A DNA stretch of 32,792 nucleotides from Deltaproteobacteria bacterium. Lineage in GTDB: Bacteria > Desulfobacterota > Dissulfuribacteria > Dissulfuribacterales > QOAL01. The translations under genes were made by a program, and so were the position numbers. This document shows, in pieces, positions 14,146-16,554 of the stretch. Under the pieces are notes generated by a model. That model was not told where the DNA came from. It did not search any database and saw only the letters and a program-made list of their open reading frames with translations. The stretch spans positions 1 to 32,792 of the forward strand of contig JALVQQ010000191.1 of NCBI GenBank assembly GCA_027025395.1. Reading direction: 5' to 3'. Positions within the stretch are counted from its first letter, which is position 1. The number at the start of each line of letters is the position of its first letter.

Positions 14146-16554
14146 CTAGAATGCATAGGTAAGGTAGCCCATTACAAACTGGGCGGTATTGCCCTCGTCA
14201 CCATAGACGTATGGATCATCATCGTCAAAATGGGTGAAGTAGTAGTTGAGGCCGATACCAACCCCGCTGTCCAGCATGTATGAAGTCCCTATTGAGAAGT
14301 CAATCTGCTGGTAATCAAGATTTGAATATTTGTCTATGCCATTGATGTACGCCACATCGTAGAGATAGGGCTGAAGGGGATTCTGCCCGGCGCTTGTCAT
14401 GGTATAGGCGTCCAGCTTTGCATCTCCGGTGGGATACATGCTGTCAAAATCGAGCTTGTCTATATCTCCACGTCCTATGGTCCAGCTGAAGTCAGTGGTG
14501 ATATTCCAGTTGGGAAGAATCTGGTATGCAATGTTTGCAACAAATGAATGGGCCTCGGTGTAGTAATCCATATCGGTCTTTTCCGAACCAAACTGGTCCG
14601 TTGTTATGAAGTTACCTCAGCCGTCGTAGATGGCTATACAGTATTGCGAATCGTAACTGTCATACATGTATGTATAGCCACCGGATATTGTGAGATTGCG
14701 GATTGGATTGGCCATGATATTCAGACCTGTCATAAGGAGGTTGTTGCTCCAGTCCCTGCCGTCAAGCTCACCGTTCTTTGAGTAGCGGTACTTGACATGG
14801 AAGCTGGTATTGAGCATCGACATTGCGTTCCAGTAGGTCCTGAACTTGACCTCGTATATCTGGTCAGGCCTGTTGGAACGATCACCTGTGCGCTTGTCGT
14901 AGATTGCCGGCCCGTAGGCGCGGTCAAGGTCATAGAAATCAGCTGCATTCGGCTTGCTTGCATACCTGCCATAGGAGCCGTCAGGTGTGCATGAGGCATT
15001 GTTGAGCCTGTATGCATCATCTATGAAGGCCATCTTGTAATCAAGGGCGAATTTGAGTCCGTGCATCAGATGATAATCCGCACCGAACTTGAACAGATGC
15101 TCCTTGGTGCTCTCGGGGACACTGTGTACGTCGTAATGATCCCTGTTTTCCTCTGCGAATTCGTACTCTCCCTTGATCTTGAGGTTACGCAGCACCCTCC
15201 AGGCGGCGTTTACACCCACCTTGAAGTTATTGCTGTCATAACCGGAGAGCCGCTCATACTCCGGCTCAATGTACTCTTCAACCGCTGCCGGATCCGCGCC
15301 ATGAGCAATGTATCCCTCGGCGAGGGTCATGGTGTCGCCGGACTTGGTATTGTTCCTGTTCTGGACCTTTTCAACATATACATCCGAGTTGTCCAGGGCC
15401 TGATACTTGCCAAAGATATTAACGGTAAGGCCTGGCATGACCCTGGCGGTAATCCTTCCGCCAAACGTATTGTCCTTGAGCTTGAGAGAATCATCATAGT
15501 TGCCAGTGAGCACATCATAGGCCCCGCGCGTGGATGTGTTCTTGTTATTTGAGTAGAGATAGAACGCATTCAGCGTGGTGTGCCCGTTAATGTCCCAACG
15601 GAACTTCGCATTGTGCTTGTTCCTGCGGTTTTCAGGGACCTCCGCATAGGGCAGGGGGCCGCTGGCGCTGTTGTACTGGACCCTGTTAAGGAAATCCTCT
15701 CCCACCTTGCCCTTGGTGTTGTTATAGAGATTCTCCATCTCTTGATCATCAGTATTGAACTCCCTGTGCATGAAGGAATAGTTGAACGCCATTGTGCCGA
15801 TACGCAGGTTGAGTTCCGGACCGAACTCGTTGTTGGTCTCCTTGATCTCCTTTGTGTCGGACACAATGTGACATGCGCGGCACTTGCTGTTGGTCATGGC
15901 CTGCCTGTCGCCTTTTCTCTGTTCAAACCTGTGATGCAGGGTCAGGTCAAACTCCGGCACGTTCGGGATATGGAACGCCACGGAATGTTTGAGCAGCTCC
16001 CTGCTGATGGCATACTGGTTTGTGGGGTCACGGTCGGTGTGGTAAACCGAGGCTGTGCCGATTGTATTCGCCCCTCCGGTGTTATAGGTAATGCCGGTTT
16101 CAGGATCGGTTCCTGTCCTCGGTTTCTGGCCCTTCGGCTTGTTTGTGCTGAACACATGCGCCTCGAGATTGTCAAGGCTCACATGGCCCAGCCTGTGATA
16201 CAGGCGGTTGTAGTCGGCCTTGTAAACCATGACCCTTCCGAGCGAGAGCATTCCCTCATAGTCCTGATCGTTGAGATCACGGTACAGGCCGTCAAAACTC
16301 AGATCAAGGACACCGCTGTTTACCCGGAGATCTCCCCCGAACACTCCTGTCCATCTCTTTGCTGCCAGGGCATTGTACTCAAGGCCGCCCTTTGAACCGC
16401 CTTCATCCGCATGGAGCCTGCCCTGGGCATTCCAGGTGGCGCCTGCCTTGAGGCTGCCTTCAAATACCTTTTCATCTTCCGCGGCGCATACAGAGGCCCC
16501 GATAACCGCAAGGGCCAGAACCGCCACTGTAATGAGAACTGAAATTCGTTTCAT
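14146..16554 (-). CDS. MtrB/PioB family decaheme-associated outer membrane beta-barrel with one internal in-frame UGA (14617-14619); possible selenoprotein
   Basis: 645 codons, UGA, then 15 codons plus the 141-aa ORF in the same frame (GNFITTDQFGSEKTDMDYYTEAHSFV...GYLTYAF). Signal peptide, repeated amphipathic strands, C-terminal Phe, adjacent decaheme cytochrome; contains CRACH. Confidence 0.85.
14584..14600 (-). promoter_or_regulatory. Candidate bacterial SECIS-like hairpin
   Basis: Minus strand CGGACCA-GTT-TGGTTCG: 7-bp stem (one G-U), triloop GUU; stem begins after a 16-nt spacer from the UGA, loop at +24 to +26. Confidence 0.4.

Follow-up and report, generated by a model that had tools for sequence, protein, structure and literature searches.

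A conserved candidate SECIS hairpin behind the in-frame UGA of a GSU2204-family, MtrB-like porin gene from an uncultured Deltaproteobacteria lineage

The experimental type of the bacterial selenocysteine insertion sequence (SECIS) is that of E. coli fdhF. In the bacterial consensus, a stem of 4 to 16 bp carries an apical loop of 3 to 9 nt that lies 16 to 37 nt past the UGA and whose first or second base is a G, with U or G next (PMC13188914). The GSU2204 family is listed as an MtrB/PioB-type selenoprotein family in two reviews, neither of which gives a Sec motif for it (PMC13188914, PMC9312934). The source cited for the family by the 2026 review (PMC2398784) mentions neither a cytochrome nor a porin in its main text. 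Transcripts of GSU2204 and GSU2203 are elevated when Geobacter cultures contain hematite and magnetite (PMC4070692). Another Geobacter selenoprotein candidate (PMC1914089) proved to be GSU2937-2936/ExtKL, which is different from GSU2204. Among the papers searched, no study of the SECIS or of the Sec residue of the GSU2204 family was found.

The stretch of DNA analyzed here (the window) is 32,792 nt long. On its minus strand a readthrough gene of 802 codons (14146..16554), preceded by the Shine-Dalgarno sequence AGGAGG, runs from an ATG at 16554 to a TAG at 14146. Frame analysis and homologue comparison place an in-frame UGA (14617..14619, minus strand), the predicted Sec646, at codon 646. The coding part behind it (14146..14616, minus strand) comprises 156 residues, the barrel's C-terminal Phe among them. 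Translated through the UGA, the gene gives a product that matches a single curated family, NF041027 "GSU2204 family CXXCH-containing (seleno)protein", at 422.9 bits (cut-off 350). The match extends over residues 12-645 and profile positions 2-580 of 580, and thus its last residue stands directly before the UGA. No NCBIfam model matched the post-UGA part by itself, no Pfam family including MtrB_PioB matched the porin at E <= 0.001, and a search of PDB sequences with profile A2 gave no match. The porin carries one conserved CXXCH motif (C225-H229), and the SKCxxCH motif is invariant across the A1 and A2 alignments.

The adjacent upstream gene (16573..17595, minus strand), 18 nt away, encodes the partner, a decahaem c-type cytochrome of the GSU2203 family and DmsE type. 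It scores 441.5 bits against NF041028 (GSU2203; cut-off 325) and 245.7 bits against TIGR03508 (DmsE-type decahaem; cut-off 192.2). The pair is retained in relatives; three genomes (G014, G026 and G027) have neither member. Judged by these profile matches, the gene is a GSU2204-family member with a GSU2203 decahaem partner. The likeness to described members lies in the score above cut-off, the UGA where the NF041027 model ends, the CXXCH and the partner cytochrome. It differs from them in coming from an uncultured Deltaproteobacteria lineage known from metagenome assemblies, and in being about 25% identical to the Desulfuromonadales members. The family is already catalogued as selenium-containing, and the present gene is a well-supported additional member. 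Elsewhere in the window, gatA is split into two overlapping minus-strand frames (5436-6880), with Amidase profile positions 1-78 in 6542-6880 and 94-445 in 5436-6557. The split is a frameshift, either real or from an assembly error.

The initial annotation had described a minus-strand hairpin behind the UGA, and the element is exactly as it was drawn. The sequence CGGACCA-GUU-UGGUUCG (14584..14600) forms 7 bp including one G-U, with arms at +17 to +23 (14600-14594) and +27 to +33 (14590-14584) past the UGA and a triloop, G24-U25-U26, at +24 to +26 (14593-14591). As had also been proposed, the loop G and its distance agree with the bacterial consensus; the lengths of loop and stem agree with it as well (7 bp, GUU, +24). 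The folding of the RNA bore out the hairpin in part. In a 46-nt stretch it is both the minimum free energy and the centroid structure (ViennaRNA), but the z score is only -1.6 (16 of 200 shuffles were equally good) and folding in longer stretches did not reach significance. Synonymous-codon shuffling of this gene alone gave p = 0.054. About 1.5% of the other in-frame codons of the gene are followed, at SECIS spacing, by a stem of at least 7 bp with a G within the first two loop positions, in line with the earlier caution that chance occurrence is not negligible. An Rfam scan of the site returned no SECIS family and a single chance snoRNA match (E 9.4). On one sequence alone the hairpin is weak evidence for a SECIS, and the verdict was decided by homologue comparison.

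A G-loop hairpin (at least 5 bp, G as first or second loop base) was found in 80 of 80 distinct UGA homologues, with the first loop base at +21 to +24. Stems of at least 6 bp are present in 69 and of at least 7 bp in 48 of these; the background frequencies for stems of at least 5, 6 and 7 bp are 8.4, 3.7 and 1.4%. Variants include CGAACCG-GUA-CGGUUCG (L029), AGCCA-GUU-UGGCU (L036), UCCUCCC-AGUU-GGGAGGA (L042) and UCGACCCA-GUU-UGGGUCGA (L115). In two homologues (L163 in G645 and L174 in G581) the peptide behind the Sec site is different and about nine residues longer, and the spacing between UGA and hairpin is nevertheless unchanged. This hairpin is not shared by the paralogues in which Cys, Gly or Ser occupies the site; under a loose criterion 6 of 11 non-UGA paralogues have a 5-bp stem, 2 of 11 a 6-bp stem and none of 11 a 7-bp stem. 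Compared with the known bacterial SECIS, the present hairpins share the short apical loop, the G placement and a stem and distance within the consensus. They differ in that most have a triloop, that no conserved lower stem reaches down to the UGA, and that a one-nucleotide bulge or a register shift occurs in some members.

Covariation was assessed on 39 sequences aligned without gaps, among which six of the seven stem pairs have changes on both sides. The covariation score is 0.358 versus 0.129 in shuffled alignments and was reached in none of 500 shuffles; the homologues are related, so these probabilities are not independent. Stem columns are paired in 87.5% of cases versus 75.6% after shuffling, and in a slid register pairing is at most 52% (about 52% at a one-column shift). 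The clearest case involves the wobble position of a conserved Gly codon, a base that the protein leaves free to vary: of the 20 sequences with A on the other side of the stem 19 have U here, and all 14 with G on the other side have C. The A-U (19 sequences) and G-C (14 sequences) types are never exchanged. A synonymous-codon test over 55 sequences gave a mean z of -2.28, with 38 sequences at 0.05 or below. Shared ancestry inflates the counts given here; changes in stem sequence nevertheless recur in lineages of 25-40% identity. The hairpin is thus kept, with compensatory changes, down to about 25% protein identity, and the doubt left by the single sequence is removed. The lack of conservation or covariation among UGA-containing homologues had been named in advance as grounds for giving up the SECIS reading; both were found, and the reading is upheld.

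The UGA stands at the same column in 28 of the 29 homologues of the class that cover the site, and is retained in nearly all, or most, of the homologues of the phylum sample and of the class of genome G107, a class in which a homologue is encoded by 51 of the 244 genomes. The sole exception in the class (L046/L147, genome G035) has GGA (Gly) and a decayed hairpin; Cys639 is retained, and its genome still encodes selB and tRNA-Sec. Eight paralogues (L130, L137 and L178-L183) have Cys (TGC or TGT) at the Sec site. Three homologues (L038, L114 and L159) contain, in addition to the TGA, one further TAG or TAA stop in frame. The post-UGA part is 88% identical to that of the same-genus homologue, versus 76% for the pre-UGA part. 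Its dN is 0.06 and its dS, near saturation, is 2.3, a pattern that indicates purifying selection on this part.

The genome encodes selB, selA and selD on contigs C145, C274 and C118, respectively. The selD gene (L049, C118:2955-3881) contains an in-frame TGA, and its product is therefore probably a selenoprotein itself. A tRNA-Sec(UCA) was sought in this assembly (90.8% complete) and not found; apparent matches proved to be ordinary tRNAs for Trp, Ser, Tyr, Gly and Leu. Both other genomes of the genus (G028 and G029) have an ordinary 98-nt tRNA-SeC with anticodon TCA, and the tRNA-Sec score is 71-79 bits in most genomes of the class.

The conservation and covariation of the hairpin, the exchange of UGA and Cys among paralogues and the presence of selA, selB and selD together support the SECIS reading. 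With high confidence we propose that the hairpin is a bacterial SECIS and that the UGA would be decoded as Sec646 through SelB, yielding the full MtrB-like barrel. By the mechanism established in bacteria, SelB carrying Sec-tRNA(Sec) would bind the G-first apical loop, and the UGA, which precedes the stem by 16 nt, would be decoded as selenocysteine. The ribosome would then make the full 802-residue barrel instead of a truncated protein of 645 residues. A genuine stop at the UGA, or a sequencing error there, with a coincidental hairpin and a truncated gene or pseudogene, is exceedingly improbable. The chance frequency of comparable hairpins and the modest z score of the single sequence speak for this reading; the same UGA recurs in dozens of independent assemblies, the stem covaries, and the reading is already contradicted by the post-UGA part, which exceeds the upstream part in conservation and has a dN much smaller than its dS. 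There is hardly any more likelihood that UGA is a sense codon genome-wide (e.g. for Trp) and that the hairpin has another role, which would account for the open frame and nothing further. Many other confident genes in the window end in TGA, so the genetic code is not altered.

Recoding through SelB could also insert cysteine by way of a selC*-type tRNA-Cys. Some Desulfobacterota have selC* tRNA-Cys species, certain of which bear the anticodon UCA, together with a second SelB (PMC7609411). The present assembly is without a detected tRNA-Sec, and selC*-like tRNA-Cys(GCA) genes lie beside a second selB in four related genomes (G002, G004, G026 and G031). However, these tRNAs have GCA and not UCA anticodons, the same-genus genomes have the ordinary tRNA-SeC and only one selB, and the genome encodes selA and selD, neither of which is needed for Cys. 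Cysteine at codon 646 is accordingly very unlikely, and selenocysteine remains the preferred reading. As to the selC*-like loci themselves, that of G002 (L130, C2:672000-686000) comprises a 90-nt tRNA-Cys(GCA) (6479-6568, minus strand) and the second, selB-like gene (4470-6455, minus strand), then a TorD-like chaperone and a PhsA-like molybdoenzyme. The block is divergent from a second decahaem-porin pair (cytochrome 6868-7914 and porin 7930-10359, plus strand), whose porin gene reads TGC at the position of the Sec codon and lacks a SECIS. The arrangement may point to the target of the known selC*/selB*. Three further genomes of the order have the tRNA beside a second selB, at 8215-8304, plus strand (L131, G031), 8402-8491, plus strand (L132, G026), and 9794-9883, minus strand (L133, G004); no GSU2204-type porin was found near it in the stretches examined.

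A structure model of the porin was built from 25 homologues (mean pLDDT 72). Of the PDB structures compared, MtrB from the Mtr complex of Shewanella matches it best (6r2q_B; E 5e-25, TM 0.62/0.76), and as modelled the porin is an MtrB-like outer-membrane beta-barrel, which with the decahaem cytochrome would make up an electron-export channel. The likeness to Shewanella MtrAB(C) extends to the decahaem partner of DmsE/MtrA type. The present barrel protein differs in its identity of just 12%, in having its own CXXCH and Sec, and in the lack of an adjacent MtrC-like gene. The model places Sec646 in a long loop (636-662), and the turns on the opposite side of the strands are short (618-621 and 680-683). 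The CXXCH lies in loop 217-235, between the short turns 195-202 and 252-255. Both loops are modelled with pLDDT below 50, and it is the strand topology that puts them on one long-loop face, which is presumably extracellular. Our best guess is that Sec646 would be a redox or metal-contact site at the outer mouth, or exit, of the conduit. A Cys639-Sec646 selenenyl-sulfide as the universal active site was considered and dropped: Cys639 is present in most UGA members and not in all, with Ser or Tyr in several UGA lineages, and a Cys-Sec bridge is therefore not the general answer. It is a speculative and rather unlikely possibility that the c-haem of the CXXCH and the selenocysteine at the extracellular mouth form the terminal electron exit, replacing a surface cytochrome of the MtrC type.

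These comparisons advance a database note to a SECIS tested on evolutionary grounds, with the UGA, the hairpin and the partner cytochrome conserved phylum-wide. Gene prediction that ends the frame at the UGA misses the final 156 barrel residues. So wide a retention of Sec in the porin of an electron conduit suggests that selenium plays a part in extracellular electron transfer.
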